DNA of 64,000 nt from Martensiomyces pterosporus (taxonomy: Eukaryota > Kickxellomycota > Kickxellomycetes > Kickxellales > Kickxellaceae): positions 187,981 through 251,980 of the forward strand of contig MU603929.1 in the NCBI GenBank assembly GCA_025201845.1, given 5' to 3'. The notes beneath the pieces are model-generated. The model had not been told where the DNA came from and ran no database searches. It saw only the letters and a program-made list of their open reading frames with translations. Each line of letters opens with the position of its first letter. Position 1 is the stretch's first letter. The position numbers and the translations under genes were made by a program. This document shows positions 559-59,577 of the stretch, in pieces.

Positions 559-909
559 ATGATGCTGACTGTGGCTGCAACGACAACAACAACAGCCCCG
601 GCTCCAGCAGCGACAGGCGAGTCATTCCCCGAATTTCTCCTTTCTCAGGGGCTGCGTGCACAGTCAGATCGGCAGTGCCGAAACACCAGTGTAGTTCACC
701 GGCGCCGTGCGATTGCCCCTTTCCTCTCAAGCAAGCGCAGGACACTGGACCACCCAGCTGACACAGCCTTCGACACTCCGTCGGCCGCACATCGTCGTCG
801 CTCGACAACAAGAGCAGTAGACCAGCAAGCTGGCGACAACATGGCTGCCGTTTCGCCGCTGGATGATGTCATAGATGAGCTTTTGCGCATTCTCAAAGGA
901 GCTGCTTAA
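559..909 (+). CDS. Small GxxAQxxR-family protein 1 (tail-less variant)
   Basis: 116 residues, single exon. I chose the ATG at 559 because it sits downstream of the TATA box and puts the shared motif near the N-terminus. Residues 23-38 carry the family motif (FPEFLLSQGLRAQ, then R38), with the invariant G31, A34-Q35 and R38. Basic stretches follow (RRR at 48-50 and 79-81). Unlike the other five members it lacks the [ST]PPxSP site, the acidic patch and the PRL[VI] C-terminus; it ends instead in a short predicted amphipathic helix (DDVIDELLRILKG). It may be a diverged member or one that has lost its C-terminal half. Function unknown. It is followed 1.7 kb downstream by family gene 2 on the same strand. 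Confidence 0.6.
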   Translation: MMLTVAATTTTTAPAPAATGESFPEFLLSQGLRAQSDRQCRNTSVVHRRRAIAPFLSSKRRTLDHPADTAFDTPSAAHRRRSTTRAVDQQAGDNMAAVSPLDDVIDELLRILKGAA

Positions 910-2477
910 TAATATAACAATATAGCCTATGCCCATGTGCAATGGACGCCGCAGCGTAGAGTGGACGATCTGCTTGTGCCACCTGGGTGCGGTGTGCGCA
1001 GCAGATCACTCAAAGCAGCAGTGCTCCACACCACGCACTTTTCAGCGAGCACAGGCAAAGAGTGGAGCCAGCCCAGGGGGGCAGGTGTAGAGGCGCTGTC
1101 CAGCCCCTTTGCAGCACACCAACTCCGCCGCACCGCTGCAGAACGTGCAACCCATCCAGAGTGGGGAAACAAGGCCCCAAATTCCCCTCAACAGAAGAGG
1201 GGACGGTGCCCTTGCGATGGCCAGTGTTGGGGCCGATTCTGCAAGAAGGAGTGAACTTTATTTTCTCGAAGCAGCACAAGGATCCTCGCTAGATGGCGTA
1301 TGCAAAAGCAAAAAAAGTTGGGAAGGCAAAGCGTTGAGCAGTGTGCGCATCCTTCACAGCTGTGCAACTCAACGCTTTGTACACGACGGGCATAAATTCA
1401 AATGCAGCTGATATTGAAATCATAGTTTTCTTTTGATAGCCCAGATGCATGCAAACAATCGGTGATCGACGTGAAGAGCAGCATCAAAAAAATGCAGCAG
1501 CTTTGCAGCCAGCAGGTGCAAATCCAGGCTGTGCGACATGCAACCTGATTGCTACTGCTCCGTTCAGAGGAATCTGAGAAAGCGCGGTGCAAGGGGATGC
1601 AGCAACATCGGAGGAAAGCATGCCTAAAAGCCAAGAAGAACACCCCGGCACGAGAAACAAGGCACGGCTACTGCACCTTGCCTGCGGTGGGAGACGACTA
1701 CTTCAATCCCCCACGCCGATAGACTAGCAGTAGAGATAGCGGAATGGGACAAGAGACGGCATGCCGAAAGGAGGGGCCCTACTGTCTCTCTCGGCATTCT
1801 AAAAGTAGGCAAAGTATGACACTCATATAGCGAAAGAGGCTTTGGCATTGTTTTGGCTCGGGACGAAGGCCGTGGGCCAGGCAAGGAGCCGATGCTGCTG
1901 CGCAGCACTCTCCCCACAGCAGGGCGGCGGCCCACCCGCCGTGAATTCCGCGTGTCTAGACTCCGGGGAGTTATGCCTGGTAAGACTGGTCATGCTCGCT
2001 GAGGGCGGCGATGAGCGTAATAAATAACAATCCACACGATTGTGTGGCCTACACCCCGCTCTGCTTGCACAAAGTGCGTCTCATGTGGACTTGGCAAAAA
2101 TAAAGATCCACGGGGCCCGTTACCAGGTGACTAAGGTAAACAGCAGTTACAGCAAACCCCCGTTTCCCCCGGTCGCACACTGGGCCAGCCGAGTGCTCAG
2201 AGGGGAGGAAGGGGAGCAGAAAAATCCGAATCTACCTCCTCTCCGCCTCGTCCCCAAGCACAGCGATTGTTCAAACGCGGAGGGGGTGCAATGGAAAACG
2301 CAATTTACCCCCCCCCCGTAGTTGGTGCGTGGGTCCTACAAGACTGGTGGGCCGATGTTGCCCTTGTTCACGAGCCTGCGGCCGCCTATTTAAACACCCA
2401 CGCTCCCCCTCCTCTCCTTTTGTACTGCATGTAGAAAATATTGCCTCGGAACGAAAATTTTGCTCCCAACACACTCA
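910..2477. other. Intergenic, no gene seen
   Basis: No convincing coding region. It holds a 7-bp perfect inverted repeat (ATGCCGA about 1759-1765 against TCGGCAT about 1792-1798) and a run of ten C at 2308-2317, about 300 nt before family gene 2. Confidence 0.5.
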
Positions 2478-2487
2478 TATATTTATA
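2478..2487 (+). promoter_or_regulatory. TATA-like box of small-family gene 2
   Basis: TATATTTATA about 140 nt before the ATG at 2620. A second candidate, TATTTAAA, lies at 2387-2394. The nearer one fits the spacing seen at the other family genes. Confidence 0.45.
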
Positions 2488-2619
2488 TTTTGGCCTCTGC
2501 CGCTGCATCCACTGCTGCTCCCTTTACACACTGTATCCTGCGCGTGCCATCTTGTACATTTCATACTCCACGCTCCGTATTTTATTCAACAGCCGCACAC
2601 ACCGGTGGACATCTCTACG

Positions 2620-2955
2620 ATGATTGACACAATCCCTTCATACATCCTCACCTCGGGCGTCATGGCCCAGCAATCGCGCAGCCGCCGCCCCGTGTCGCGA
2701 GTAAACATCCTGGGCGGGGCTGCTCGGCGACTGAGCCTCACATCTGTCTCCTCAGCAGCGCACTCTTCGGCCTCCTCATCTCAAGCGGCATCTCCTCCCC
2801 CATCTCCCACTGCTGCCGTTGAGGCGGAGGAGGAGGAAGACGAGGATGATGCTATTCCGTCGGAAATCAAGACCGTTCTTGGATACATGCCCGCAGCTCA
2901 GCGCGGATGGCCGCAGGACTTGCAGTTCGATGTTCCACGGCTGGTCAACTTTTAA
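2620..2955 (+). CDS. Small GxxAQxxR-family protein 2
   Basis: 111 residues, single exon, ATG at 2620. Layout: residues 8-20 hold the family motif (YILTSGVMAQQSR; G13, A16-Q17, R20), followed by RRPVSR; a Ser-rich linker; SPPPSP at 58-63; an acidic run at 68-77; and a C-terminal block with IKTVLGYMP (83-91), W97 and a tail LQFDVPRLVNF ending the protein. The last 29 residues align without gaps to family gene 5 (29114), sharing IK-VL, a conserved Trp-Pro and LQFDVPRL. No signal peptide, membrane segment or known domain is visible; the protein is expected to be largely disordered. A nuclear or cytosolic regulator is inferred only from the basic patch and the proline-directed phosphosite. Confidence 0.75.
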   Translation: MIDTIPSYILTSGVMAQQSRSRRPVSRVNILGGAARRLSLTSVSSAAHSSASSSQAASPPPSPTAAVEAEEEEDEDDAIPSEIKTVLGYMPAAQRGWPQDLQFDVPRLVNF

Positions 2956-3615
2956 GGCCTCAAGGACACGGAGTGCCATTCAATAGTACTGGCTGGCACC
3001 CAATGTCCCCCACACCCCTCGCGCGCTTTATACATACTCCTTTTTGTACTTTATACTCGTTTGTTTACTATTTCCTCGCCTACGTGGTCTAGTCTACCCA
3101 CACACCACGTTGGCTGCATAATTATTTGAATGCATTTGACAGAAAATGTTACACTAGGCGCAAAGGTCATGGGAGGTTGCACCAGAAAAAAAAGCACAAG
3201 GGAGCTGCCAGGAACCGCCGCCTTTGCCTGTTTGTCTGTTTGTCTCGCTTGCAGGCAGGCAGGGTGTGCAGAGGACTCCTCCCCACTCGCCCAAACCACG
3301 TTTTCGCCCTCCCTTCCTGTTCTATTTTTAAGCGCCAATCCATTAGTGCTACTGCCACCAGTGAATTATCTGAGCCATGGAGCACTCGACTGGCGTCATT
3401 GAGTGGGGAGTGGCATATTGCACGACGAAAATAGGCCAGGCGCAGTGTGCTGCAGCCCGACAAGACCAAAAGCACCAAGGGAACGGGGTGGTCAAAGCAG
3501 TATGTGGCAGCCAATAAGGAAAGGAGGGAGAGTAATTTAATAAGTGTACAGATAATAAGTATATAACAAAAGGCAGAGCCAAACAAGAGCCATCCTCCAC
3601 AGAAGCACACCACGT

Positions 3616-4257
3616 TTATCTCGACTCCGGCAGCCTTGGAAAGCTAACGAGTCTCGGCGCAGCTCGCTGTGCAGCAAACTCAAGGGCAATGTCGACAGTC
3701 TGCACGCCATTATGAATCACGCAGTCCCTGCCAATATACTCGAAGCGGGCATCCGAGAACCTCGGGTTTATCGACGCTCTTGAAGACCTGTTCGCCTTGG
3801 CGATGGTAGGCGAATCCGGAGGGGTGGCCAGCATTGTTGCCAAGCCCTGCTGATGGTGCACTTTGGCCCCTCTGTATGACGATGCCGGCCGAGTGTTGCT
3901 GCCTGGCAGTAGGTGTTTGAGCGGGATGGGTGTGGACGCTGTTCGCTTTGCCACAGTTCTTGGCAAACGTTGTGCTGGCTGTGACGATCGCCACAGCCCG
4001 AGTGGCTCCTGTGTTGGCGTGGACATTCGACTTGGCAGCAGGCTCCCGCTTGCCGAAACCCACGATAGCTTCGCCGTCGGCGCATCTGTGGGCCCTGCGA
4101 TCCGTGGCTGCTCTGGAGCGGCTGCAGACTCGAACATTCGCTGCGTGAGCATCAGGCTGCGGCGCCGGCGCTTGATCCGCGTTACCTGGGCCGAGATCCC
4201 CTGCAGCAGCACCAGCTCCTTGTAGATATCGTCGGGCATATTGTCCACCAGCATCAT
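3616..4257 (-). CDS. Small GxxAQxxR-family protein 3
   Basis: 213 residues on the minus strand. I start at the ATG-ATG pair at 4257/4254; an upstream in-frame extension to 4365 is hydrophobic and unlike the other members. The family motif is at residues 15-27 (ELVLLQGISAQVTR; G20, A23-Q24, R27), followed by KRRRR. A long low-complexity middle follows. TPPDSP at 145-150, in the context LATPPDSP, fits a Cdc4-type phosphodegron. The C-terminus contains RDCVIHNGV (177-185), nearly identical to DDCVVIHNGV in family gene 4, and then APRLVSF, with a seven-residue extension not present elsewhere. It converges on gene 2 (660 nt apart). Function unknown. Confidence 0.72.
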   Translation of the reverse strand: MMLVDNMPDDIYKELVLLQGISAQVTRIKRRRRSLMLTQRMFESAAAPEQPRIAGPTDAPTAKLSWVSASGSLLPSRMSTPTQEPLGLWRSSQPAQRLPRTVAKRTASTPIPLKHLLPGSNTRPASSYRGAKVHHQQGLATMLATPPDSPTIAKANRSSRASINPRFSDARFEYIGRDCVIHNGVQTVDIALEFAAQRAAPRLVSFPRLPESR

Positions 4258-4461
4258 TAGGGTGTTTTCACAGCAGCTTTGGTTGTGGATTGGGTGTTCA
4301 TATGTGAAAATAAAGAGAAGCGCACTAGCAGTAGGTAGAAGTAGGCGGCAAAGAAGGAACAGCAAAATAACCAGAAAGTATAGCAGGGGTTAACAGATGG
4401 AGAAAAGCCAGGGCACAGGCACTATAGATGGGCTGGGCAGGAATAGAGCGGGCGGAGTAAG

Positions 4462-4468
4462 TATATAA
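4462..4468 (-). promoter_or_regulatory. TATA-like box of small-family gene 3
   Basis: TTATATA on the minus strand about 205 nt upstream of the chosen ATG. This is farther than at most other family genes. Confidence 0.4.
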
Positions 4469-14031: not shown

Positions 14032-16272
14032 TTATGCATTGGGATGCTGCTGTAGCTGTTGCTGCTGCTTCATCTGTGCATAGCTGCCATAGGGCAGTGT
14101 CGTGAACGGCGAACTGAAAGGCACCGTGCGCACCCTAGCATGAATCGGGACAATATCGCTGTCGCCCACTTGAGAAAGGTTGGACGACGCACGCAGCGAC
14201 GAAGGGTAGCTGCCCGCAAACACGTTGTGCTCATCCACACCGACACTCATATCGCCGCCGCTGCCACGCTCAGCAGCAGCAGCAGCACTGCCACGGCGCA
14301 GCCCGAGGAAAGGCGGTCTTTTAGGCAGGAAGTACCTCGAGGAGTTGTCCTCAGCAGCAGCATACTCATTTCCGGCATCCTCATTCGCGAGGTGCACGGA
14401 AGAAGCAAACGTCTCTCGGCTGCTGGCACCTGAGTTGGCCGGCACAGGCATGACTGGCGAATGCAAGATCGACGATGGCTCGTCCCAATCTCCACTGTCT
14501 TGGTGCAAGGTATCGGCGTGGTATGTGGTATTGGCGGCAGCACGAGGAGTGTGCTTGCTGTCCACTGCAAGGTGTCCCCAGCTCCTACCGCCGCTGGCAC
14601 CGAGCATCAGTGATCCCTTGATCGCCTGCCCTGCCTGGCGCACAGCAGTGGCCAGACGACGCCCCCTCGGCTGTTTCTTTCCTGGTGCTGCACTCCTTGG
14701 CCGCTCGGATATCAAGCTGCCGCACGGCGACGACTCAGCTGTAGGGACACCGGCGGGCGAACGCGGGCCAGACATTGACTTGCAGAAGCTGACTGAGCGA
14801 CGAAGCAGCTTGAGCCCTGCGCGCTTAACGATTAGGTGGACCCCCTGCTTAGTAGAACCTGGTCTGCGTGCTGACTGGCGCCGCATATCGCCAAGCGAAG
14901 CCTCGGTGTCGGTGTCGCTGTAGTCAGAGCTGGAAAACAGGCTCGAGCACTCCCAGTCAGTGTCCTTGCGGCGCGGCACTGAATGTGGTTTCAGGCTTTT
15001 GATCAGACGCCAGGGCGATCTGGGCGACTTGCCAATGCACAGGGATCCAAAGCCCGGGATCCCGCCATTGTTGGTGCTTGCACTTGATTCACGATTGACG
15101 GCAGCACTGCCATCGTCAGCCGCCATATGTGCAATTGGTTCCTCATCTGCAACGTTGGCTGGCTCCATGTTTGGCGTGGTAGAGTACGATGTAGTGTGGG
15201 TCGTGTGCCAGATAGACTCCTCATAGATGTCGTAGATCTTGTGCTGGTCAAACAGCGACTTGCTTATTCTGTTTATCCGGCGCGGGGCACTCTGGCTGAT
15301 GCGCTGCGACCAGGAAAAGCCGCTGCCCCTGCTGTGCTGGCTGGGAGAGCTCGATCCGGGGATACTCGTAGGGACGTCATAGAGGTAGCGCGATGCTCGG
15401 TACGTGCTTTTTTCAAGCTGCACATCAAGGTGCGCTTGGTCACGCTTTTGCTGGGGTCGGCTATGACTCGGGTGTCTCTGCGATGATCCAGCGGGCTGCC
15501 CAGTTGCTGCAGACAGAGCCGATGGTGAAATGAGCATGGAGTTGCGACGGTATCCATCATTGCTGCCACCACTTGCTGCCGCTGCTGCTGGCTCTATGTT
15601 GGAAAGCTTGTGTGGATGCGGTGTAGGGAACGACTTGGGGTTGCCTTCAGGGTCTGGCGTCTCGTACGGCAGAGATGCCTTCTTCTCCTTCTGTGCCAGG
15701 CTGGATGAGGTGGATGGACCGTGGGTATGAGAGACTAGTGTGATGGTGCCGGATGACTTTCCCGCATCGGATTCATACGACCCAGTATCTGTCGGGGACG
15801 GGATGTCGGCTGCGTCGGGCAGCGGCTCGCCACGAGTATCGAGAGCGAAGATGGACTGGAAGAAGGACTTGCTGCCTTCGTCTCGTTTGAGTAGATTGTG
15901 GTGAGATTTAGCAGCTCTGACGTGCGTCGCGCGCTTGCCACTCTTGGGGGCTGGCTCGTCGGGCATCGGGAATTCGCTCAGCTGGAGTGGGGCACCAAAC
16001 TGGCTTGAGAATTTGGGGAGAGAGGTCGTGGACTTTGATACCCGCACATAGGCGCTTGACCCAAGGCCACAGTCGGGCTGAACAGGACACAAGGACAGAG
16101 CTGGGCTGGTGCTCATTGATTTGTGGTACCTGAATGTCTGAGCAGCGGTTTCGTTAGGCGATCTGGAGGGGAGGAGGGTGGGTTCGTGGTGCTTGGAGGG
16201 AGGGGAGGGGAAATTGTAGAGGTCTGGTGCCTGTGTGTACTGCGTTGGTTTGCTGGTCTCCGCTGCGAGCAT
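14032..16272 (-). CDS. Ser-rich, largely disordered protein of unknown function
   Basis: 746 residues if the ATG at 16272 is used. Just upstream the minus strand reads TATTTTTTGCAG, a plausible 3' splice site, so a leader intron or an upstream exon is possible. No catalytic domain or membrane segment is seen. The protein has serine-rich low-complexity sequence, a basic/helical stretch in the N-terminal third (RAAKSHHNLLKRDEGSKSFF then QSIFALD), an acidic-Ser cluster (SSDYSDTDTEASLGD) that looks like CK2 sites, two basic segments (KRAGLKLLRRSVSF and KKQPRGRRLATAVRQ) and a C-terminal Gln-rich end. I do not recognise the family. A cytoskeletal, polarity or signalling scaffold would be a guess only. 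Confidence 0.75.
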   Translation of the reverse strand: MLAAETSKPTQYTQAPDLYNFPSPPSKHHEPTLLPSRSPNETAAQTFRYHKSMSTSPALSLCPVQPDCGLGSSAYVRVSKSTTSLPKFSSQFGAPLQLSEFPMPDEPAPKSGKRATHVRAAKSHHNLLKRDEGSKSFFQSIFALDTRGEPLPDAADIPSPTDTGSYESDAGKSSGTITLVSHTHGPSTSSSLAQKEKKASLPYETPDPEGNPKSFPTPHPHKLSNIEPAAAAASGGSNDGYRRNSMLISPSALSAATGQPAGSSQRHPSHSRPQQKRDQAHLDVQLEKSTYRASRYLYDVPTSIPGSSSPSQHSRGSGFSWSQRISQSAPRRINRISKSLFDQHKIYDIYEESIWHTTHTTSYSTTPNMEPANVADEEPIAHMAADDGSAAVNRESSASTNNGGIPGFGSLCIGKSPRSPWRLIKSLKPHSVPRRKDTDWECSSLFSSSDYSDTDTEASLGDMRRQSARRPGSTKQGVHLIVKRAGLKLLRRSVSFCKSMSGPRSPAGVPTAESSPCGSLISERPRSAAPGKKQPRGRRLATAVRQAGQAIKGSLMLGASGGRSWGHLAVDSKHTPRAAANTTYHADTLHQDSGDWDEPSSILHSPVMPVPANSGASSRETFASSVHLANEDAGNEYAAAEDNSSRYFLPKRPPFLGLRRGSAAAAAERGSGGDMSVGVDEHNVFAGSYPSSLRASSNLSQVGDSDIVPIHARVRTVPFSSPFTTLPYGSYAQMKQQQQLQQHPNA

Positions 16273-17138
16273 TTGCTGCAAAAAATACAACTAAAAAGAG
16301 GTGGGTGTAGCAAGCGAGAGGAGTATGTTTTAGTGGATACTCGGGCAGAGAGATTTTGTGCGGAGAACTTGGAGGTTTTTATACTATGAGCGATGCTAGA
16401 ATATGTTGGTGTTTATGATGTGCGGCGACGTTTTTTGTTGTTGTATCTTTATATCGGCGTGAGCATTGGCAGCATGTAGAATAAGGAATCCGTGTGCGAC
16501 TTTAGCTATGGATCAGAAATATGAGAATGTGAGTTCATATGCTGTGAGCTGTAAGCTTTATATGACAGAAGATGGAGGTGGTTCATGCGAGAAGATGGCA
16601 AAGCGGAGGAGAGGAAGGAGAGTGGATATGTGATGCCGGAAAGTGAGCAGGGGAGCAGGCATCCAGCCAGATGGGAATGACGGCTAAGCGGCAGAATATG
16701 TGGATATCCATGAAGCTGCAAAGAACGAAAGGAATTTCTTGGGTTTGTCCCAGAATCTGGTAACAAAGAAGCCACGATGGAGAAAACAGAGATATAGCAG
16801 CTGCAACGTTGCCATTATATCATCCATGTTATGCAGCAAAACAACAACAGCGTGCAACGATCAACGTTGGCAAAGCAGTAGCGTTTTACGACGATGGCGA
16901 CAGTCATTACACAGAAAGCCGCAAAAATGCATCGCGAGTAGTCAGTGATAATTTGTGTAAAATTGGGAATATATGAGAATGTGAGCCATGGCTCGCAACA
17001 AGAAGAAAAGGGGTGGGCGATAAAGTATAGGAGAGCAGAGGTGGTTGGAGTGACACTATGGATATTGCTCAGAGTGTGTGGGTAGTCGCGCTACAGCAAG
17101 AGTAATAGGGGAAAAGAACTAGCGCTTCCTTTCTCAAG
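16273..17138. other. Intergenic, no gene seen
   Basis: About 0.87 kb, relatively AT-rich. It holds the upstream region of the Ser-rich protein gene and the 3' end of Rae1. No open frame of interest. Confidence 0.5.
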
Positions 17139-21343: not shown

Positions 21344-23310
21344 ATGGCATCAAATACAATGGATATCGGCACGGCTAGCACCAGCGACAGTGGCCCTGTC
21401 TTGTCAGAAGCCGAGAGAAAAAGGCTCGCTCAAGAAGAATCCAAGAACGAGTTCAGCAAGCTGGGTAAATATCTGCATTGGCTCCTCATTGCTTCGTTGT
21501 TGTGTCCATGGTACCGCTGCTGTTTCCAGGTTTGCAGGTTGGCAAGCATATGCGCTGGATTCCCTACTAAAATGCCGCTTTTGCTCTCCTTTTGCTTTCT
21601 GCTGCTAATACTCTCCTAGACTCGATCATGGAGCCGACGACAGTTGCATTTGTGGAGCAGTATTTGAGCGCCGGAGGAGCACCGTTCAATATCATGAACC
21701 TGCTGATGTCCAGCTACGAGGGGCTTGCGGCGATGGCAAACATGGTGGCAGCAGATGTCCTGGGTGCTTACGGCGCCGACGAGAAGGCAGCGGTGCTGGA
21801 CACAGTCAACCTCAAAATCGTCGAGAGCTTTGATGCCAAGGCGGCCGATTTGGAATTTATCAAAACACAGCAGCTGCCGGAATACATCGAATCGATGCTG
21901 CCACACCAGGTCTGGCGCAGGACCATCTATATGCTAAGCGAGCGGTATCCGAGAAGTGCGATGATCAGCGCAGCAATCCAGCGCATTGCAGACCAGGGGT
22001 TCCAGGCGGAGATGACATCGTTAAACTCGGCGTCTTTACACACGCACGTCTTCTACAGCTTATTGGCTGAGTGCTTCGAGAAAATCGCGCCTGCAGACGA
22101 TGGAAACATCAAGGAACGTATGCGAGAGCTAGTGAGGACTGTGTGCCGGCGAGAACAGACGTATTTTGTCGCACAGTATGTGTTTAGGAATGTGCAGCAA
22201 AAGGTGGGTGTCGGTGCTGCAGCGCTGCAGAGGATCGAAGACGAGCTGGAGACGTACATGTTCGATACGTATGATCGGCCGCAGCTGGCAATCAACATGC
22301 GCCTGGTGCTGGAGGGGTTTTCTGTTGGCGGCAACGACTCTGTGGCGAACGCTGTGGGGTCCATCATTCAGAGCGCGCACGCTGCACCAGGAGACGTAGT
22401 GTCTCTGTACAAGCAGTACCATGGAGCACTGGCAAGTGGACAGCCGATGCCTCCGGCGCGCATCGTGCGGAACGACCGCGTTATGCTGCCTATTATTGAG
22501 CAAGTGTTTGGGCATTTGTGGGGGAGCACGTCACAGAACCAGCGCGCTGAGCTCATGGACAAGTACATTTGGCTCATCGCGTACGGGACGCTGTGCTCTG
22601 ACGATCAGAATGGGGGAGTTGATGAGAGCAAAATGAAGCAGCTGATCGAGCAGATGAGGGAGATTCGCGAGGAGCTGCCGTTCCGGCCGACGCAGACCGG
22701 ATTCCACAAGGTTGTTCGGAGGATCCTTGACTGGATCAGCACACCGATCCTGGCTCGCGTCGTGCTGCTGTGGGTGCGAGACGTGCTTTGCTACGGCAAC
22801 TTCACATACTACGAGATGTATTTCCGGAGCTCCGAGGTGCCAGTGCCGCTGCTGCTACTCGAGGAGATTGCGTACCGACAGCCGTTGCAGAAACCATTGG
22901 TGTTCGCTGCATACCAAGATAGCTTTGAGTCAAAGGTGCCCAGCTTCCCGGCGGAGAAGCAAATTCGGCTGCAAAAGGCGGTAATCAACAGGATGGCGGT
23001 GCTTGTGCAACTCAGCTATTCTGCGCCGGTACTCCGCTATTTCATTGACAATGCGCAGTACATGGACGAGAGCATCATCGTGTACTTTATTCACCGGTCG
23101 CTGGCGCAGTTCGAGGCGCCTTACCCCAAGGAGTTTTACGACCCGATGCTCACGCTGATTGAGTTTGCAATCAACGGCGTCAAGATTGCTGAAGAAAAGG
23201 ACCTTGCCAACGTCCGGGGTTTCCTTGACAGCATCGATGAGGATTTGGCCAGAAAGCTCTATTATCAGCTGCCTGAAGAGCCCATGGCTACGTCGCCAGC
23301 CGTGAAGTGA
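21344..23310 (+). CDS. NELF-C/D (TH1) negative elongation factor subunit
   Basis: Two exons, 21344-21464 and 21620-23310, give 603 residues, close to the roughly 590 of animal NELF-C/D. The 155-nt intron has donor GTAAAT, branch GCTAATAC and acceptor CCTAG, and splits a GAC codon. After a short acidic N-terminus the exon-2 product starts DSIMEPTTVAFVEQYLSAGG, which follows the family's 'IMEP ... AGG' opening. The family pattern continues through PEYIESMLPHQVWRRTIYML, RIADQGFQAEMTSLN, KYIWLIAYGTLC, VVLLWVRDVL and the C-terminal AVINRMAVLVQLSYSAPVLR block. Family role: an essential helical-repeat subunit of NELF, which with DSIF holds RNA polymerase II in promoter-proximal pausing. NELF is missing from budding and fission yeast, so its presence here is informative about lineage. 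NELF-A, -B and -E are not in this window. Confidence 0.93.
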
Positions 23311-24712: not shown

Positions 24713-25225
24713 ATGGACTCGTTCTTTCCTCCGTCAGAGAGCACCACCATGCTTCTAGCCCGCCAAGGGTTCAACGCACAATACCGCCGCCAGTCCATCC
24801 CCCGCATTGCCCTCACCACATCACACGCTGTCGACACATCATCAGGAGCAGAAAACAGCCACCTTCCTTTGCACGTACGCCGGAGCATAGGCAGCAGTGG
24901 TCGGTTGCGATCGGCGTCCGACGGATACGTCAAGCAGATTAGCATTCCGCCCAGACATGCAACACGCACAGATGCACTCAATTCGGGCGACCCACATCAT
25001 TTGGTCCACTCCGCCAGAGCCTTGAGCTCCAACCCTTCGGTGTCGCCGCCTTACTCGCCTTCGTCAAAGAGCCTGCATGAGAGGTACTCGGCACAGTTCT
25101 TGAATGCGTCGATTGAGGAGGAGGATGGCGACGATTGCGTTGTTATCCATAATGGCGTCAAGAGGCTCAGTTTGAGCGAGGAGGGCATTGTGTTGCAGGG
25201 GCGGCCAAAGCTGGTTATCATCTAA
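24713..25225 (+). CDS. Small GxxAQxxR-family protein 4
   Basis: 170 residues, single exon, ATG at 24713. The family motif is at residues 13-25 (MLLARQGFNAQYR; G19, A22-Q23, R25-R26). The rest is a polar, Ser/Arg-rich linker, then SPPYSP at 111-116, an acidic patch EEEDGDD at 135-141, the block CVVIHNGVKRLSL (142-154) and a C-terminus ending GRPKLVII. The HNGV block is shared with family gene 3. The tail is the family's P-[RK]-L-V form with Lys in place of Arg. No signal peptide, membrane span or known domain. Function unknown; likely a disordered regulatory protein with short interaction motifs. Confidence 0.75.
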   Translation: MDSFFPPSESTTMLLARQGFNAQYRRQSIPRIALTTSHAVDTSSGAENSHLPLHVRRSIGSSGRLRSASDGYVKQISIPPRHATRTDALNSGDPHHLVHSARALSSNPSVSPPYSPSSKSLHERYSAQFLNASIEEEDGDDCVVIHNGVKRLSLSEEGIVLQGRPKLVII

Positions 25226-29113: not shown

Positions 29114-29452
29114 ATGAGCGACGCTACTGTCCCAGAGTACATTTTCTCGTCGGGCTTGAGGGCCCAGCAGGTGCGCACCAGCCGCCCCGCCTCGCGGCCA
29201 TCCAGCGCGCGCAGCACACAGCGGTCCAGCATTGAATCTGCCGTCTCTCTCCAGATTGTCAACCAGCTGCTCTGCAGCGAGCCACCCACACCGGCCACTG
29301 CCAGTATCCAGGATGACGCGGATGAGGATGAGGATGAGGACGACGAGGACTCCAGGTTGGCGATCAAGGCAGTGCTTTGCCACGTCTCGTCTGCCCGGCG
29401 TGCCTGGCCTGAACGGCTGCAGTTCGATGTCCCTCGCCTGATCAGGCTATGA
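29114..29452 (+). CDS. Small GxxAQxxR-family protein 5
   Basis: 112 residues, single exon, ATG at 29114 (an in-frame TTG two codons earlier was ignored). The family motif is at residues 9-21 (YIFSSGLRAQQVR; G14, A17-Q18, R21), followed by a Ser/Arg linker. The proline-directed site is reduced to EPPTP (56-60). A long acidic run (67-79, almost all D/E) precedes IKAVLCHVSS, a Trp-Pro pair (W98-P99) and the end LQFDVPRLIRL. It is the closest relative of family gene 2, sharing length, motif order and the C-terminal third, which suggests a dispersed duplication. Function unknown. Confidence 0.75.
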   Translation: MSDATVPEYIFSSGLRAQQVRTSRPASRPSSARSTQRSSIESAVSLQIVNQLLCSEPPTPATASIQDDADEDEDEDDEDSRLAIKAVLCHVSSARRAWPERLQFDVPRLIRL

Positions 29453-35615: not shown

Positions 35616-38600
35616 ATGGCGTTATATACTAAGCAAGGTACGAAGGCAGTTTCAGAAATATTTAGTGTTGCAAACATTCAGAGGCACAACGGGCAAGTTA
35701 GTGCTTTTTGCTTCATATAGCATTATTTGCTACCCCCTCCCCTCCCTGCTCTTCAGCTTGTCTACGCCACAGCGCTGCGTACTCTTGCTGAATCCAGAGC
35801 AAAGCACTCGCCATTGTCCACCGCTGCCTCTCCCGTCACCCCGCCCTCCTCGGGACTCCCTTCCTGCGACATTTCATTCCAGACAGGCAATTCTAGCAAA
35901 TGATCTTTTTTGCCAAGAGCTACCTGTCCATTATACCCAGTGGCCATTGTCTGTTGCCCGCTTATTTTAATGATCGCGCAAAAAAGCAAAGGACGTCGAA
36001 TGACAACCCGCAGGAAAAGGCAATGCACTGAACCATATGTGCACTCCATTCACTGGGCCAAAACTATTTTTAACCCTGGCACTTTGTAGACCTGAAGGAT
36101 TCGCAAGAGCTGTATCAGGACTGCGAGTTCATTTCGAAAAAGACCCGATCTATCTACGCGTGGCGTGCTGCTCTTTGGGTTCGATATTGCAAGGAGCAGG
36201 ACACTGACTTTATCGTCACGGAGGACAGGCTCATTCGGTATCTGGACTGGCTGTTTGAGATCGACCTTGTCCACAAAATCAACACAAAGAAGAGCTATGT
36301 GCCCGACATTTTGCGCGACCATATAGGCAGTATCATCTGCCTGTGGAGGATTCAGACCGGGAACGACCCCGATTTGGTCTCGCCGAAAGAGGGAACCCGA
36401 TATCAGGCCAAATGGGACGAGATCCTGCGCAACTATCCAAGGCGCGAGCGGTTCCAGCCCCGCAGCTACTTGCCCGATGGCATCAGGGGCATTGATTCGG
36501 GTGTTGGCACCCCCGGAATGGGCTCCGCTGTGTCGCCGCACATGCACTCTGCCTTTCCGCATGGGTTTGGCAGCGATGCGCCCAGCTACCACTACCACCA
36601 CCACCACCCGTACCAAAAGCCCCAGCCCCAACCTCAGCAGCCACAGCAGCCAGTGCTGCCGCCGCTCCAAAAGCAGCAGCACCAGCGGCAGTTTCCAGTA
36701 GGCTTGAGCGAGCCTGCTGAGCTTGGCTGGCAGCTTGGCTGGATGCAGAACTGCAACTGGGCACCGACCACTGCTCGCGTCCTTTTTACCATTGCCGTCT
36801 CGGCCTGGGTTGACGCAGTCGATGTTGTTGGGATGCGCCTGTCAGATATCCACTTTGCGTCGAGCACCATGGCACCCAGACTGCCGTCGTCGGTACTGAG
36901 GCTATCGCTGGTCACCAACACTGCCTCGGGCGTTCGCACTGGAGGACAAGGCCTGAGCCCGGCCAATGCTGGCACGCGTCAACAGGTAAGTCGTCTGCTG
37001 CTTCCGTAGCAGCTACTGAAGCGCCTCCTTCCAAAAGCTTGCAATTGCATGCATCGCTGTTATCACCATGCCGCCCCCTTCAACCCCCATTAGGTAGGAT
37101 GCCCTGTTTGGACAGAGGGCAATTGAAACATCTGGACATATTTGCCGGGATGGTTGAGAGAGGGAGGCGGGTTGCTGTTTGTCTTGCCGTCGCCTCCAGC
37201 AGTTTCATGTCTTGCCCAAAGCCTACTGCGCCTGCTTTCTTGCCATCTGGTCCTGTTATCTGCAGCTGCAGCAGCAGCAGCTCTGCCTTGCCCATGGCCA
37301 CCACAATCCAACCCCACCATTTTCCCTCCCCACACGATGCGAGTGCATACATCGCTACTTGGCATATGCACTGCATTGTTCAGCCTGCGTGCATCCATCT
37401 TCTTACACACCCACTCGCTAAAACCACGGTGTGCTGGCTAGATTTCTCGAATGCTGCTGGATGCGTGGATGTGCCCACCCAGCTTGTTCCGAATTTGCTG
37501 CACTTTGCGCTCCATTGCGCTGCTGCCTCCCCCACACTTGCGCGCTTGTGCTTCAGTCATGCTATGGGCATGTGGCTTCTGCATCAAGTCTGTTATAGTG
37601 TCTCTATCCCTTCTCGTTTCCACAGTGCGGCCAAAAGAAGCAGGCAGCAGCCTGTTTTGCTCTAGGCGGCAGGGGTGTTGTTTCTCTGGCCCTCCCCCGT
37701 CCCTCTTGCCTCGCTGTTTTGGCCTCTGCCTTGGCCTCTGCCTTGGCTTTTGCCTTGGCTTTTGCCTTTTGGCATGCGCACACTGCATAGTCCGCTGCTT
37801 TTTGCCGCCATCCGCTCCGCTATGCCTGCACGGAGGCGTTTGCGAGTCATGTCGTGTCCGCAGCAGCCGAAGGCCAGAAACAGCGCCCTGGGGCCTTTTC
37901 CTCTATTTCTCCATCGCCAGCTGGCCGCTTGCAGTTGGGCTCCAAGTGTGCGAGCCGTGGAAATCCTTCTAAATGCGTTGTATACACAAACACCGCTACT
38001 CCCATGTGTTTTCCCACACTTCCACCCAGAAAAAACGCGCGCGCCTTCACCGGCTCTAACATGGGATGATTTGTGCTTTTGGGGAGACATCTTTCCACGC
38101 CATAAAAATCTGCGGAGTTCCTTTGCCTGCCCACTTCGTGTCCCCTGGAAGGTTCGAATTCTCGCCTCCTCAGCTCACCGATCACTTGCCGTGGCTTGGT
38201 GTAGTGGTCTGCTCGCTCCCAGGCAAGCAGGCTATCGCTGCCGCTCCATTCCCAGATCACCACGCACTTCCTCCTCCACCGCGTGAAATATTAGAAAAAC
38301 TCGCCGCCAGAGCTGCGCAGGAAGCCTGCGTCCGCACTGCCCCCCATTTCACATGCAAAACATGGTGGTGGCAGAGGCAGCCCCAGCGGCTCAGCGCAAA
38401 GCCTGCACTGGCGTCGTTACACGCATATCCAACTCGGTGACATATCCCGCTTACACGCGCAAACGCTGTTCCATCTCCAATATGCTATGGCTGTCTGTAG
38501 TTCAGCGTGATCCGCTCGCGAAACCCGCTTCTCTGCTCGTGGAATGCGCTGGCAGCCGTGCTCTTCTACCGCTGGCACGTCGCCGGGTCGCCGCCACCGA

Positions 38601-44491: not shown

Positions 44492-45349
44492 TTACCCGTC
44501 GCCATTGGATGAGGGGCTGCCCGACTCGATGCCTGAGGGGAGCCCGCCAGTGGCCGATTGGATGAATGACGTGAATGAGTTGACATGTGTGAAGAGGCTA
44601 ATCATTCCGCTGCCTCCGCAGTTCACAGTGATTTGCTGGCCAGGACCTGCTGTGCCAAAGCTCGTGATCCCTAGCAGCTTGTTCCTGCCGTTGACCTTGC
44701 GAATCAATGGGCCGCCCGAGTCGCCGGGACAGGTGTCCGTACCCCTGTCCGCCGCAACGCAAATGCGGGGGCCGTTGTTGCCGGTGAACTTGGTGTCCTT
44801 CTGCTGGCACTGTGCGGTGGATAGGGTTGTTAGATCGCCCTGCTTGAGATCCTGGGACGCCGTTTTGCCTGTGGGCGATGTGAATCCCCAGCCAAGGGCC
44901 GTCACGGTGATGCCGTCACCCACAGACCCTGTGTCGATCTCGATGGGGCTGGCGTTGGAGGAGATTGGCTTGGACAGGCGCAGGAGAGCAATGTCATTGA
45001 CCATCGATGCGTCGTTGTACTGTGGATGGACATGCATCTCAACAAGCCCGGTGGCTTTGGAGGTATCTAGGTTGTAGTTGTATTGGCCCACGTAGACGTC
45101 GATGTCGGAGATCTTGGCGGTCTTGATGCAGTGTGCTGCCGTCACCACCCATTGGGAGGAAAGTATGGAGCCGCCACAGAAGGTGTGCTCGGCATTGTTG
45201 TGCAGGTACACAATGAATGGGTACGCGCCCTTGGACGCTGTGGAGCCGCCCATGATGCGCGGCGCCAAGTGGTGGTCTCGGCGCGGCAGGGCGTCAGTCG
45301 ATGAGGTGAGGCTTAGGACTAGCCAGGCGAGGGTGCTTGGCACTTTCAT
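44492..45349 (-). CDS. Secreted trypsin-like serine protease (S1 family)
   Basis: 285 residues, start ATG at 45349 giving MKVPSTLAWLVLSLTSSTDA, a signal peptide; a longer non-ATG extension was rejected. A short propeptide ends at R31, and the mature enzyme begins IMGGSTASKG, like the IVGG of activated trypsins. The triad is complete: H73 (VVTAAHC), D119 (NDIALL) and S211 (GDSGGPL). D205, six residues before the Ser, is the trypsin S1 aspartate, so cleavage after Arg/Lys is expected. Cys58/Cys74 can form the active-site disulfide. The C-terminus carries a Gly/Ser-rich tail (GLPSGIESGSPSSNGDG). Extracellular digestion of protein is the likely role. A minus-strand TATA-like element lies at 45491-45498. 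Confidence 0.95.
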   Translation of the reverse strand: MKVPSTLAWLVLSLTSSTDALPRRDHHLAPRIMGGSTASKGAYPFIVYLHNNAEHTFCGGSILSSQWVVTAAHCIKTAKISDIDVYVGQYNYNLDTSKATGLVEMHVHPQYNDASMVNDIALLRLSKPISSNASPIEIDTGSVGDGITVTALGWGFTSPTGKTASQDLKQGDLTTLSTAQCQQKDTKFTGNNGPRICVAADRGTDTCPGDSGGPLIRKVNGRNKLLGITSFGTAGPGQQITVNCGGSGMISLFTHVNSFTSFIQSATGGLPSGIESGSPSSNGDG

Positions 45350-45490
45350 AGTAGGATTGCACCTGTTCTTGGGAGTGGTGTGGGGGTGATGTCTTGTAGA
45401 AGGAGCAGAAAGGAAAGGAGAATGGGGGGTTAGAATACGCCTGTTGAGCCGGTTTGCGTGCAAGAGGGGGTCCGTCGGTGCTGGCACTGC

Positions 45491-45797: not shown

Positions 45798-45821
45798 TCT
45801 CTCTCTCTCTCTCTCTCTTTC
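45798..45821. repeat. TC dinucleotide repeat
   Basis: About eleven consecutive TC units in the intergenic region upstream of the trypsin gene. Confidence 0.85.
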
Positions 45822-50807: not shown

Positions 50808-52580
50808 TCACCACGGGTTGCGGTCAAACAGATACGAGATGGACTCTCCGTTATGATTGCGACGAATAGCCTCGGCCAGCACAGGCGCCACGTCGATCTG
50901 GATAAGCTTCGTCGACGCCGACGTAAGCTCCTCTGGGATCGGGAACGTGTTGGTGACGATGACCTTCTGCACATATGGGCAGATCTCGACCTCGCCCAGC
51001 GACGATCCACTAAACAGGCCATGCGCGGCCACAATATACACGGCACGGGCCCCGCAGTGGACCATCAGGTGCTCAGCAGCGGTGAGGAACGACGACGGCT
51101 GGTCGATCATGTCATCCAGCAGGAGGACAAGCTTGTTCCTTACGTCACCAACAAGCGTGATGCGGGCGTTGCGTTTCTTGTGCCACGAGGTCACAGCCAC
51201 AGGGGGTCTTGTGGGCGGATCGGCCTGCAGGTGGGTGCCTGAGGTGATCCGCTGGATGGCAGACATGCTGCTGCTGCCGGTGCCGCGTCTTGAGGCCAGG
51301 TGGGGCTGGGAGTACTCGACGGGCACTGCCGCGGGGCGTCCAGGCGTCGACATAAAGTGGCTGACTGAAGCCGGAATGCGCGCCTTTTTCTGCTCCGCGA
51401 TGCCCGCCGACGCCTGCGCAATGGCCTGCGCGTTGTGGGCCACAGAGGCATCCGTGGGGCTGGTGAGCTCGTCCAGGGGCGTGTTGACCATCTCCATCAG
51501 GTTCCCCTCGTCGATGTCGTCGTCGTCGTCGTCGTCCGAGCGGTTCAGCACCTCGGTGATCTCGAGGCCCGACGGCGGCGTGGCGACGCCCTCAATGAGA
51601 AGCTCCTCCGGATCCGGGTGCTGCTCGGCTGCGAGGATGGGGCTGACCTGGAACGCAGCTCTCTTCATTGCCTCGGTAACCGCCGCAGTGCCATCCTTGC
51701 TGTCCTTGTTGTCCTCCTCCTTCTCTTCCTTCTCCTCCGCAGAATCGGGGATGGTCTTGAGATCCAGGCCGACCTGAGAGCCCTCTCGATCGTGGGCCCT
51801 TTGCAGCGGCGACGGCGACGGCGACTGTGCGCGGGGCGAGTTGATCGGGATCGCGTTAACTGCATCCGCAAACATGCCAGGGCCACGGGGGGTCTGTGGG
51901 AGCGTATGCAGGGCGACCGTCGAGGGCGTGCGCGAGAACGGTCTCGTAGTGGGTGCATTGTCCGTATGGATCAGGGCGAACGACGTTCCCAGGCGGTCTG
52001 CCAGCGCGGTAACCCTCTTCGCGCCTCCTGCATTCTTCGCCACGACCACAATGTCCTTGGGCCCACCCGCCAGCCCACTCTCCTTCTGCCCGCTGCCCTT
52101 GGCGATGTTCTCGATGATCCACCTCCCAATCGTCGGCTCCGAGAAGAGGTTGTCCACAGGGATCGTAAAGAACCCGGACATCTGGCTGGCGTGCAGATCC
52201 ATGGTGATAATGTGGTCGGCTCCCGCCACCGTCACCATGTTGGCCACGAGCTTGCCCGAGATGGCTCCGCGTCTCTTCTTCTTCTTGCTCTGCTTCGAAT
52301 ACGGGAAGTAGGGCACCACAACCGTGATCTTGCGCGCACTGGCCAGCTTCGCCGCACTCACCATTATGAGGACCTCCATCAGGTGGTCGTTCGTGGTGGT
52401 GGACCCGCTCTGCAGGATGTAGACGTCCTTTTCGCGCACCGAGCAGCCCAGGTCAACCGTGGTCTCGCGGTTGGTGTACCGGCGCAGGTTGACGGGTGCA
52501 AGCTCAACGCCCAGGTGCGCGGCCACGCGCTGGGCGAGGGCAAGGTGCGAGGTTCCCGCGAAGAGTTTGGCGTTGCGCAT
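50808..52580 (-). CDS. PRPP synthetase homologue with large insertion (Prs1/Prs5 type, probably regulatory)
   Basis: 590 residues from the ATG at 52580 (MRNAKLFAGTSHLALAQ); a TTG seven codons upstream was ignored. N-terminal half: RRYTNRETTVDLGCSVREKD, VYILQSGSTTTNDHLME, the loop YSKQSKKKKRRGAISGKLVA and MDLHASQMSGFF (H130). Residues about 212-460 are an extra low-complexity segment with acidic runs, comparable in position to the non-homologous regions of yeast Prs1/Prs5. The C-terminal domain resumes at LVGDVRNKLVLLLDDM. The PRPP-binding loop, normally DD-x-x-DT-x-GT, reads DDMIDQPSSF here (from about 489), so the T, G and T are lost. The YSKQSK loop and this loss both match PRPP-synthetase-associated or Prs1-type subunits, which form hetero-complexes with catalytic subunits and, in yeast, connect to cell-wall signalling. 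Catalytic competence is doubtful. Confidence 0.9.
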   Translation of the reverse strand: MRNAKLFAGTSHLALAQRVAAHLGVELAPVNLRRYTNRETTVDLGCSVREKDVYILQSGSTTTNDHLMEVLIMVSAAKLASARKITVVVPYFPYSKQSKKKKRRGAISGKLVANMVTVAGADHIITMDLHASQMSGFFTIPVDNLFSEPTIGRWIIENIAKGSGQKESGLAGGPKDIVVVAKNAGGAKRVTALADRLGTSFALIHTDNAPTTRPFSRTPSTVALHTLPQTPRGPGMFADAVNAIPINSPRAQSPSPSPLQRAHDREGSQVGLDLKTIPDSAEEKEEKEEDNKDSKDGTAAVTEAMKRAAFQVSPILAAEQHPDPEELLIEGVATPPSGLEITEVLNRSDDDDDDDIDEGNLMEMVNTPLDELTSPTDASVAHNAQAIAQASAGIAEQKKARIPASVSHFMSTPGRPAAVPVEYSQPHLASRRGTGSSSMSAIQRITSGTHLQADPPTRPPVAVTSWHKKRNARITLVGDVRNKLVLLLDDMIDQPSSFLTAAEHLMVHCGARAVYIVAAHGLFSGSSLGEVEICPYVQKVIVTNTFPIPEELTSASTKLIQIDVAPVLAEAIRRNHNGESISYLFDRNPW

Positions 52581-53419
52581 TTGCTCTGAAACCTTCTCCA
52601 ACTTTGAAACTGGACTACACGGAAAGACAAGCAGGCCGGGTTTAGCAGGCTGGGGGGGGGTGCAATTTGGCAGGGCGGGGAAGCTGCAATTCTGTAAGGG
52701 CTATGTACCTTTCTGCAAATCTGCGAGTGGTGCTTAAATAGCCTTTCCTTCAAACCCAAATCTCCGGACTGCAAGTAGGAAGCAGGCGTGTTTGCTGGAA
52801 GAGCAATAGAGTATAAGGAATAAAAAGTGGGAGAGCTCGGCGAGGGAGAGAGGGGGAAGAAAAGAGCGCCAGCCTATCAAGCCCTAGTGTCTGATCTCCT
52901 TTGCTCCCAGGCCTTTCGCAGTCTACCCGGGGTCACGTCACAGCAGCAAGTGAAAAAATTTTGCACTGGACAATCCCCTTGGGAAAGCGGCGAAAGTGCC
53001 CTCGCACTCTACATAGAGGAGATGTCAACACATGTAGGAATGCAACGTGTGTCTGGGACCCAAACAAGCTGTACACGCACATGTGGAGGCAAAGGCACAA
53101 TCGCAGCTGTGTCTGGGCTCATTTTCCTCCACCCGATCGAGCACTTGGTCCCGCCGTTGGGTGCAATGCGAGATGCTGGGCCAAAAGACAAAGGCAGACA
53201 TCAGCTTGTTTCTGGGCTTCCACGCAGCCACAACATACGCCAAGGGATACGACACCATCCGCACTTGCACCTGGGCTTATCAGCAGTGCTCCGCTTTGCT
53301 GCTCTGGGTCCCACACACCTGAAACTCTCTTTCCCCTCCCCAGCTCAGTGCGGCGGGATCGGCGACTCATTTGCCATTGTCAAAACTAAGGAAGCGAGTC
53401 AACGAGAGAAGCAGCTATT
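52581..53419. other. Intergenic, no gene seen
   Basis: 0.84 kb containing the Prs promoter. A plus-strand open frame through here is not protein-like. Confidence 0.5.
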
Positions 53420-54262: not shown

Positions 54263-54640
54263 CTTGGAAGGCAAAGCAATATGTGCGAATTTGTATAGCT
54301 AAATTGAAATGGAGAGCCGTGCTGGAAGAGGTGTGCAGGAAACGCAGGCAGTGCGCGGGTGGCTAGGGCGCGCACAGCAAGCACGCTAATCTATCAAAGC
54401 GTGTTTATCGGGAGCCAATCACAGCAGCCGTCGTGGCATAGCAGGGCTCCTCAAGCACTGAAAGCTCGCTCATGTGGGCGTGTGCTGGGTTTGTAAATAA
54501 ATCCAGCCTTCTCTGCTTCACATTGCGCACCACCCTCATTTTCCAATTCCACTCCCTGTCTTCGCCGCATCCTTCGCTTCAGTACATCTGCTTGCTTTCC
54601 CCAGTTGATAGACGGAGAACAGAAAGCCCCCGATTTAAAG
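54263..54640. promoter_or_regulatory. Divergent promoter shared by SWP1 and a p24 gene, with CCAAT box
   Basis: 378 nt separate the two ATGs. A CCAAT element lies at 54415-54419 near the middle. Both genes act in the early secretory pathway, so shared regulation is plausible. Confidence 0.45.
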
Positions 54641-55343: not shown

Positions 55344-56288
55344 GCCATGCCAATGTCTATTCTGCTTTTGCTTTCCATTTGGTTTCCTTGCGTTTCTGGG
55401 GTTTTGTCCAGACGATATTACAACACGCCCAACTCTCATCCAGCTCTGCCTCGCCTGCTGTGGTGCTGATTAGACTATATTCGGATAGCTGCATTGCCGC
55501 CCGCATTCGCAAATGCATATATTGCCGATGCTGGTTGGGACTCGAGGCTCCCAGCACCACAGGCGCCTGCTGCATCGCATGGTGGGAGGAGGGGACAGCG
55601 ATTTGCGAGGAGGCTTATGACGGTGGTTTTTATTTGTTGACTCTGTGCGCGCGTGTTAGGCGTTCCAGCACTCAAAATTTTCCCCTGCCGCCGCAGACAC
55701 CAAAACAGCAGCGACCTTGCAAGCGACCCTGCGCCCGCTCTTCTTCCCTCCTTCCTTCCATGTTTGGCAGCACTCCCGCCCTTCTGTGTGCCCTCATATA
55801 TACCCGCCAGAGCTGCCTGTCGCTCGTGTTAACAGCTCCAAAGCAACACCCCCAAACGCCACGCTTTCTTTCTTTCTCCCGGCTCCTTCCCAGACAGTGC
55901 TTGCTACTCCTCCTTGCATTCAGTCCAATTCAATTCGCTCGACGCCTATACTGTCCACCCACCTCCTCGAGTGGTGCTCGCACTTGGCAGCAGCTACACA
56001 TAGAAAAGCCGTATTTACATTATCTGTGTGGACCCTTTCTCAGAAAAGGTCACAGACCGCCTCCCTTTATACCGCATATATAGCCCGCCACCTATGTATA
56101 CGGCGGTTTATACGTCACAAGCACAGCCTGCTGCCTTGAGATATACTTATTTGAAATAAGCGCTGCAGCGCACTCCTACCGTGTTTGTATACACCAGAAC
56201 ACAAGTCACCAGGGCAGCAGCTCTCCATTGTAGTTCCACATATCCACCTATCAGAGAGAAAAAAAAAACAAAGGAAATATAGTCCACA
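55344..56288. other. Intergenic, promoter side of the Cds1/Chk2 kinase gene
   Basis: 0.95 kb. A TATATAG at 56077-56083 is a candidate TATA box about 205 nt before the kinase ATG. No coding signal. Confidence 0.45.
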
Positions 56289-58529: not shown

Positions 58530-58938
58530 TGTCGCCTATTTTATTTTATTTTATTTTATTGTTTGCTCAAGGTGACCATTGTTCTTTTTTTTTGCAGTAA
58601 GCAGATATACACACTGTGATTTCTGCCTGAGCAAGCAGATGCGTGGTGGCCTGTTGCTTTTTGGCATGCTGTCTGCGCAGGGGGTGTCTATGCAGAAGGG
58701 AATCTGCGGGTGGTCTCCGAATGCGCAGGAACCAGCTCCATTCTCGCTATTTGTTGGCACCACCAGGTCCACGACACATGCCAAGGGCACCCTGCACCAA
58801 CGCGGGCCCCACCAGAGCGATGACATAGGTACATTGTGTGTATTAAAAATGAGGAATAATGAAAAGTGGCGAAATGATACATATGAAACAGGCTCACAGG
58901 GAGAAAACAATAGGCTGGCTTTTAAGTGGTGGTTATGT
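58530..58938. other. Convergent intergenic gap
   Basis: 0.41 kb between the kinase gene and small-family gene 6. It holds an ATTTT repeat right after the kinase stop codon. Confidence 0.5.
58537..58560. repeat. TTTTA pentanucleotide repeat
   Basis: About five TTTTA units in the presumed 3' UTR of the Cds1/Chk2 gene. Confidence 0.85.
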
Positions 58939-59577
58939 CTACAGGTTAATTAGCCGCGGTCTTTCCAGGCGAATCTTCTTGGACCCCAGCACTGCATAAT
59001 TGAACAGCACGCCATCGTCCTCCGTATCGCACAAATCGTCCGCGTGCTGCTCAGGGACAAACAGATTCTCCGCCTCCGAGTCTGTGTCACCAATCTCTGT
59101 GATCGAGTTTAGCGAAAACACAGGCGGCTGGAGCACATGGTCGCTCTGGCATCTCTGATATGTTGTCGGGCGGGAAGGCGAGTGGGGCGGGGTCAAAAGG
59201 GTGGCAAAGCAGCTTCCCTCCGCTTGCTTGTGCAGCGTGTGTGCCGCAGGGTGGCTCCTGCATGGTGAAGTTTGCATCTCCTCTGCCTCCTCAACCTGCG
59301 TCAGCGAGGAGCACGAGGAGAGGGGTGGGCTGACTGGGCGCTGCTGTTTGTAGGAGAAGGCGCTGGTGAGGAAGGAGATGACCGCGGGTCTGCGGACGTG
59401 GCCCAATGTGTTTCGCCGTCTCTCCACCGCGGACCCGTCGCTCTGCTGCTGTGGGAGGTGGGTGGACATGGAAGAGGGCAGGCAGGCATCGCTCTTTCTG
59501 CGGCGCCTGGTGTTCTGGGCCATTAGACCCTGGGTTAGGACAAAGTCGGAGTCGGTGGGCATTGGAAACAGCGCCAT
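58939..59577 (-). CDS. Small GxxAQxxR-family protein 6
   Basis: 212 residues on the minus strand, ATG at 59577. The family motif is at 12-24 (FVLTQGLMAQNTR; G17, A20-Q21, R24), continuing RRRK. A second Ser-Pro site (VSPPLSS, 82-88) precedes LLTPPHSP at 127-134, which fits the Cdc4/Fbw7 phosphodegron pattern. An acidic stretch (about 161-189) and DDGVLFNYAVLGSKKIRL lead to the end ERPRLINL. The gene has a TATATAT box 145 nt upstream and lies 3'-to-3' with the Cds1/Chk2 kinase gene. No known domain; function unknown. This member shows the family's parts in the clearest order. Confidence 0.78.
   Translation of the reverse strand: MALFPMPTDSDFVLTQGLMAQNTRRRRKSDACLPSSMSTHLPQQQSDGSAVERRRNTLGHVRRPAVISFLTSAFSYKQQRPVSPPLSSCSSLTQVEEAEEMQTSPCRSHPAAHTLHKQAEGSCFATLLTPPHSPSRPTTYQRCQSDHVLQPPVFSLNSITEIGDTDSEAENLFVPEQHADDLCDTEDDGVLFNYAVLGSKKIRLERPRLINL

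Follow-up and report, generated by a model that had tools for sequence, protein, structure and literature searches.

An apparently undescribed, Kickxellales-restricted family of short genes with conserved ends, clustered in Martensiomyces pterosporus

Six short genes in the window, that is, the 64-kb stretch of DNA analysed here (C1:187981-251980 of a source genome of 17.4 Mb in 216 contigs), look like members of a real, clustered and order-restricted protein family, undescribed as far as we have searched. On our preferred reading, to which we give an even chance, they form a local paralog cluster of a Kickxellales-restricted, mostly disordered family whose products would act as two-ended docking proteins. 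Nothing known is overturned by such a family; it brings a gain in annotation, where databases now say 'hypothetical protein'. Conserved short genes confined to one order offer a tractable entry to what sets Kickxellales apart, and the combination of conserved ends with free linkers singles out residues for testing. The cluster itself would be a clean example of local duplication retained across genera.

Six short genes and their two boxes

All six open reading frames that had been proposed were found at their proposed starts, and they encode proteins of 111-213 aa (Table 1). The N-terminal motif G-[LVIF]-x-A-Q-x-x-R (N-box) lies within the first 40 residues of all six, with G, A, Q and R invariant. 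A one-residue shift of the Arg, previously read in g4, proved to be wrong, since the sequence GFNAQYRR puts this Arg in register. For the 12-residue core, a regular expression tuned on the six genes themselves gave exactly six matches over the six frames of the 64 kb, and these are the six genes. The N-terminal motif is half of the family's signature: a second element, P-[RK]-L-[VI]-x-[FLI] (C-box), which the preliminary description had missed, stands at or near the C-terminal end of g2, g3, g4, g5 and g6. Alone among the six window genes, g1 lacks it.

Table 1. Position and boxes of the six genes; the short names g1 to g6 stand for the genes starting at the positions in brackets
Feature	Position	Strand	Length	N-box	Other elements
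g1 (559)	559..909	+	116 aa	LLSQGLRAQSDR at 637-672	C-box absent
g2 (2620)	2620..2955	+	111 aa	ILTSGVMAQQSR at 2644-2679	C-terminal LQFDVPRLVNF; PRLVNF at 2935-2952
g3 (4257)	3616..4257	-	213 aa	VLLQGISAQVTR at 4212-4177	IPLKHLLP; TPPDSP
g3 C-box	to 3640	-			INPRFSDA...DCVIHNG...APRLVSF; stop seven residues further on
g4 (24713)	24713..25225	+	170 aa	LARQGFNAQYRR at 24755-24790	SPPYSP
g4 C-box	to 25222	+			LHERYSAQ...EEEDGDDCVVIHNGVKRLSLSE...GRPKLVII
g5 (29114)	29114..29452	+	112 aa	IFSSGLRAQQVR at 29141-29176	C-terminal LQFDVPRLIRL; PRLIRL at 29432-29449
g6 (59577)	58939..59577	-	212 aa	VLTQGLMAQNTR at 59541-59506	TPPHSP; C-terminal RPRLINL; PRLINL at 58959-58942

Relatives and probable shared ancestry

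Relatives came from profile searches, run three times against a set of about 5.8 billion proteins. The search with the six window proteins gave 5 hits, the proteins scored being the 8000 candidates with the most shared words; the search with g5, the relative P0005 and g2 gave 5 hits among 68 candidates; and the search with g4, the relatives P0003 and P0004, g3 and g6 gave 42 hits among 498 candidates, the linkers being masked by X in these last two. Once four window proteins were removed, 43 relatives were counted, all of them from Kickxellales and, where a genus is named, from Coemansia, Dipsacomyces or Linderina. They divide into a g3 group of 19, a g4 group of 21 and a g5 group of 3, the g5 orthologs coming from Dipsacomyces and two Coemansia. 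The expectation that related fungi would yield further hits retaining the motif is thus confirmed by these 43 proteins. No orthologs of g1 and g6 were recovered, which is weak evidence of absence in a search that depends on shared five-residue words, and g1 was queried solely in the six-protein search. As far as these searches reach, and with the same five-residue-word caveat, the family looks restricted to Kickxellales.

Both boxes are kept in nearly all of these proteins. The N-box, written as G-[hydrophobic]-x-A-Q-x-x-R, is present in 41 of the 43 relatives, or in 42 if T is allowed after G (P0042); P0044 is without it, and its gene model begins at AQ. The C-box, written as P-[RK]-[LIVM]-[VIL]-x-[FLIMV] and located at most 30 residues from the end, occurs in five of the six window genes and likewise in 41 of the 43 relatives, the two that lack it (P0015 and P0036) being partial records broken off inside the box. 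Coemansia sp. RSA 2703 LPJ73_007512 (P0003), Linderina pennispora EC988_008075 (P0037) and Dipsacomyces acuminosporus GGI12_000205 (P0025) and GGI12_000213 (P0005) resemble the window genes in carrying both boxes at a similar length. Unlike the members of a named family, the Kickxellales relatives are recorded just as hypothetical or uncharacterised, with no domain or function given.

The view that no named family has this layout is borne out by negative results from Pfam, the PDB and the open-licence literature. At the Pfam cut-off none of the six window ORFs had a match, the best E for two group alignments, 42 members in all, was 0.0075 to an unrelated model, and the precomputed Pfam field is empty for P0005, P0007 and P0008. 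Against the PDB, where the g5-group profile was left out, the best E was 0.068. No description of the family was found in the open-licence literature, a scope that takes in few subscription papers and no bioRxiv preprints; nor did passages of the review PMC10386755 bring anything on it.

The relatives also appear to keep some of their genes close together. In genomes with two groups, the tags of all five pairs sharing a locus-tag prefix lie 3-8 numbers apart: GGI12_000205/000213 (g3, g5), GGI20_000722/000725 (g4, g5), LPJ53_001549/001556 (g3, g4), IWW36_001153/001159 (g4, g3) and GGI07_001631/001638 (g4, g3). The two records of every pair also give one and the same length for the longest contig. 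The step is six or seven between g3 and g4, eight between g3 and g5 (Dipsacomyces) and three between g4 and g5 (Coemansia sp. BCRC 34301); in the window, on a rough count by eye, the same steps are 7, 8 and 1 or 2. Read from locus tags, these distances suggest that the cluster is kept in five relatives.

Conservation is concentrated in the boxes, whose boundaries for this comparison were chosen by us. Overall, the boxes have a mean pairwise identity of 0.63-0.83 and the linkers one of 0.24-0.29; by group, the N-box, C-box and linker values are 0.71, 0.78 and 0.29 for g3, 0.83, 0.66 and 0.29 for g4, and 0.75, 0.63 and 0.24 for g5/g2. A measure of selection on the boxes comes from one paralog pair with few codons: over the 51 box codons of g2 and g5 (NG86), dN is 0.30 and dS 1.09, with 0.29 and 0.62 in the N-box and 0.31 and 2.02 in the C part.

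Are the groups one family or several? In profile comparison with hhalign, the N-box joined the g3 group to the g4 group (probability 87.5%, E 3.6e-6), and no confident link emerged between the g5/g2 group and the others (probabilities 2.9% and 2.0%); of these two runs, the one at 2.0% aligns exactly the N-box and the one at 2.9% merely an acidic stretch. When an N-box HMM (N-HMM) is built from one group, it mostly fails to reach the others. That of the g4 group finds g4 alone, and that of the g5 group finds g5 and g2, followed in third place by a piece that is not a member (E 0.052). The g3-group one matches g6 (E 0.0066), and this match, the TPPxSP box and the C-end make up the support for g6. 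At the other end of the protein, a g3-group C-box HMM built from relatives matches g3 at E 3.2e-29 and, second after it, the C-end of g4 at E 0.0079; the reverse comparison is weak, the g4-group C-box HMM reaching g3 at E 1.6 and rank four. The tie of g2 and g5 to the rest is weaker, as is that of g1 to any member. All that speaks for g1 is its N-box, its position within the cluster and a coding signal that is weak; it is the least secure of the six and may have decayed or diverged, or match by chance.

Alternatively, the six genes could belong to two or three unrelated small-protein families with a convergent N-terminal docking motif, g3 and g4 (with g6) forming one and g2 and g5 another, and g1 being a chance or decayed match. 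Such an arrangement would accommodate the non-significant comparison of the g5/g2 profile with the others, the g5/g2 C-terminal half (IK.V....R.WP..QFD.PRL), which resembles the others in its last six residues alone, and the missing C-box of g1. We nevertheless consider it unlikely: both ends agree in kind and in position (a box in the first 40 residues, with PRL[VI]x[FLI] closing the protein or nearly so), exact-box scans found one cluster and nothing similar elsewhere in the genome, and duplication is likelier than convergence inside a single 59-kb cluster. Agreement at both ends and in location makes common descent of the groups likely in our judgement, though it is not proved.

Predicted structure and possible role

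AlphaFold2 models were obtained for two groups. The g3-group model has a helix at residues 9-45 over the N-box, with a mean pLDDT of 57.7 and a pTM of 0.26; the g4-group model has a helix at residues 9-27 over the N-box, with a mean pLDDT of 54.1 and a pTM of 0.22. Most of the rest is below a pLDDT of 70 in both, and the C-box is a weak hairpin in the g3 model and takes no such form in the g4 model. According to these low-confidence models, the N-box lies within a predicted helix and the protein is largely disordered. Families of disordered regulators that bear short linear motifs and occur in a narrow range of taxa are a known general kind. The window family is like them in its short proteins, low-complexity linkers, conserved ends and narrow distribution, and unlike them in forming one local paralog cluster in which five of six members have motifs at both ends.

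In a docking protein with two working ends, one face of the helix would present G0, A3, Q4 and R7 of the N-box as a docking surface for a partner. The C-box may contribute a strand or a tail to a second site, or to a second partner, and the linker would set the distance between the two ends. TPPxSP-like sites in the linker might further serve as control points for proline-directed kinases. Searched for with a loose pattern, a TPPxSP-like box turns up in 17 of 19 g3-group and 18 of 21 g4-group relatives. In the 43 relatives, which are mutually non-independent, there are 160 SP/TP sites versus 108 in shuffled sequences, the maximum of 500 shuffles being 134. Control by phosphorylation is a guess, since the six window proteins show no excess of SP/TP sites (15 versus 14.3 shuffled) and the TPPxSP-like pattern is absent from the g5 group (0 of 3). 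A more ambitious proposal is that the family is an order-specific set of sister regulators, all docking by the G-A-Q-R helix face and a C-terminal strand to one conserved Kickxellales hub, from a syntenic cluster that would predate the split of Coemansia, Dipsacomyces and Linderina; we find this rather unlikely in its full extent.

The RVxF motif is the docking motif of protein phosphatase 1 regulators, and the PRLVSF and PRLVNF ends of window genes fit a loose form of it. The family could be a fast-evolving Kickxellales form of a known pan-fungal regulator, such as a protein phosphatase 1 regulator with RVxF, that has become unrecognisable by sequence. A regular expression for RVxF matches within the last 25 residues of 12 of the 19 g3-group relatives, and of g3 and g2. 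It matches in none of the 21 g4-group and none of the 3 g5-group relatives, however, and RVxF was dropped as a family-defining feature. The remaining architecture matches none that we can name, and no credible relative was found in Pfam or the PDB. A disguised pan-fungal regulator seems to us unlikely beside the two-ended docking family.

Chance matches and extent in the genome

To weigh the N-box by itself, an N-HMM was built on 40 distinct N-blocks from the relatives, window proteins excluded, and run against the 1063 stop-to-stop pieces of at least 40 aa in the window. In this ranking g3, g5, g6, g2 and g1 took the first to fifth places and g4 the seventh. E-values ranged from 5.8e-9 to 0.018 (the latter for g1), g4 having a full-sequence E of 2.8 and a best domain of 0.012; the corresponding scores were 31.2 bits for g3, 14.8 for g5, 13.6 for g6, 11.7 for g2, 10.7 for g1 and 3.3 for g4 (best domain 11.2). 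The control consisted of 86 other loci from the same genome, which add up to 264,899 bases with some overlap and were mostly fetched for carrying the pattern. Its best piece reached 15.2 bits, above all genes except g3, and the next piece 9.9 bits. The best piece is an out-of-frame stretch within a 507-aa ORF, which we take to be a carboxypeptidase gene. Since it outscores five of the genes, the N-box score alone is no proof of membership for the weaker ones. For four of these weaker genes, membership is shown by orthologs and C-ends: the orthologs of g4 and g5 match along both ends, and an N-HMM of the three g5-group relatives matches g2 at E 4.8e-7. Judged on sequence, g2 is a paralog of g5.

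The codon score is highest in the proposed frame for all six genes; it is lowest for g1, and the margin is narrow for g5 (0.154 versus 0.101 in one antisense frame). That these are short ORFs bearing an accidental motif is very improbable: a loose N-box DNA pattern does have 233 matches in the genome versus 129 for its reversed control, and one chance piece does score 15.2 bits, but 43 relatives keep the conserved ends, codon usage is in frame and dN is below dS for g2 and g5, and the reading is refuted for g2-g5 by orthologs or a paralog, while possible for g1 and less so for g6.

The six genes stand among ordinary fungal genes, which encode a Sec7-domain GEF, ribosomal protein L18, a TH1 protein, a trypsin, a kelch protein, COQ5, a ribose-phosphate pyrophosphokinase, ribophorin II, a p24 protein, an FHA kinase and a WD40 protein that is Rae1-like on our reading. 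A TATA-like box, which had been claimed before each gene, was found in strict form (TATA[AT]A[AGT], at most 160 bp upstream) before three of them and was missing before the other three. By chance it is expected in about 5% of such stretches, and it precedes one of ten other window genes; the three boxes would fit regulated expression, no more. Within the 500 bp before the six genes, no common upstream words rose above random.

The preliminary description had also spoken of a dispersed, sizeable genome-wide family, and here the outcome was different: exact-box scans gave no convincing member outside the window. The six genes appear to be a local cluster, not spread genome-wide; as far as intact boxes in unspliced frames can show, the family seems confined to the window cluster, and diverged or split boxes would escape such scans. 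Among the first 100 listed of the 233 loose-pattern matches (contigs C1-C24), 52 were read, the first 30 as 3-kb loci (6 being the window genes) and a further 22 within 20 regions, each of 5-10 kb, chosen by eye; the 46 outside the window included no member. The N-box with Q or S before G occurs at 32 places, of which six are the window genes. The other 26 were judged by eye, 23 on translated flanks and 3 on a stop codon inside the match, and no member was found among them. The 23 were read in 3-kb loci (8) or in 126-130 bp (15, one of these also in about 550 bp). A full-length g6 search of its own genome returned g6 itself and two weak linker matches (E 0.26 and 0.64); it misses the other five genes because the paralogs are too diverged.

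Shorter pieces of the boxes were scanned as well, and the extra matches whose flanks were read gave no member. VIHNG belongs to the g3/g4 C-box and occurs at 8 places: in g3, in g4 and in six non-members read over 181 bp each. FD[VIM]PR[LF] has 5 matches (12 for the reversed control), namely g2, g5 and three non-members read over 76-91 bp each. QGYxAQ occurs at eight places, of which five, read over 81-91 bp, held no member and the other three have Pro at x (C2, C4 and C81). The outside place hardest to dismiss is C6:253170 (L068, 130 bp). PRFxDA occurs at 18 places, one of them being g3 and another lying at position 54628 of the window.

Paired segments on another contig

Two ORF segments read elsewhere in the source genome while checking N-box pattern matches are almost the same in sequence, lie in inverted relative orientation about 33 kb apart and are perhaps a repeated element. 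The ORFs around GLMAQQN do not belong to the small-protein family.

Other genes in the window

Pfam at E 0.01 returned no match for two long ORFs, which carry stretches rich in Ser or in His/Gln/Pro. This fungal window also encodes a trypsin-family serine protease and, in a member of the Kickxellales, a TH1-family protein; NELF-C/D belongs to the same family. A search of an open-licence paper library on NELF and early-diverging fungi returned nothing. In the ribose-phosphate pyrophosphokinase, a lengthy region with much low-complexity sequence lies between the N-terminal domain (12-127) and the synthetase-associated domain (468-592).

Location and evidence for each feature
Feature	Location	Strand	Evidence
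Trypsin-family serine protease	window 44492-45487	-	Pfam, E 1.3e-45
Near-identical ORF segment pair	G000 C12:1-5000 (L042), C12:30000-38000 (L043)	opposite orientation	ORF around GLMAQQN
Long ORF without Pfam match	window 14032-16290	-	Pfam search at E 0.01
Long ORF without Pfam match	window 36299-37009	+	Pfam search at E 0.01
Ribose-phosphate pyrophosphokinase ORF, 597 aa	window 50808-52601	-	ORF and domain matches
TH1-family protein	window 21592-23310	+	Pfam PF04858, E 2.3e-73
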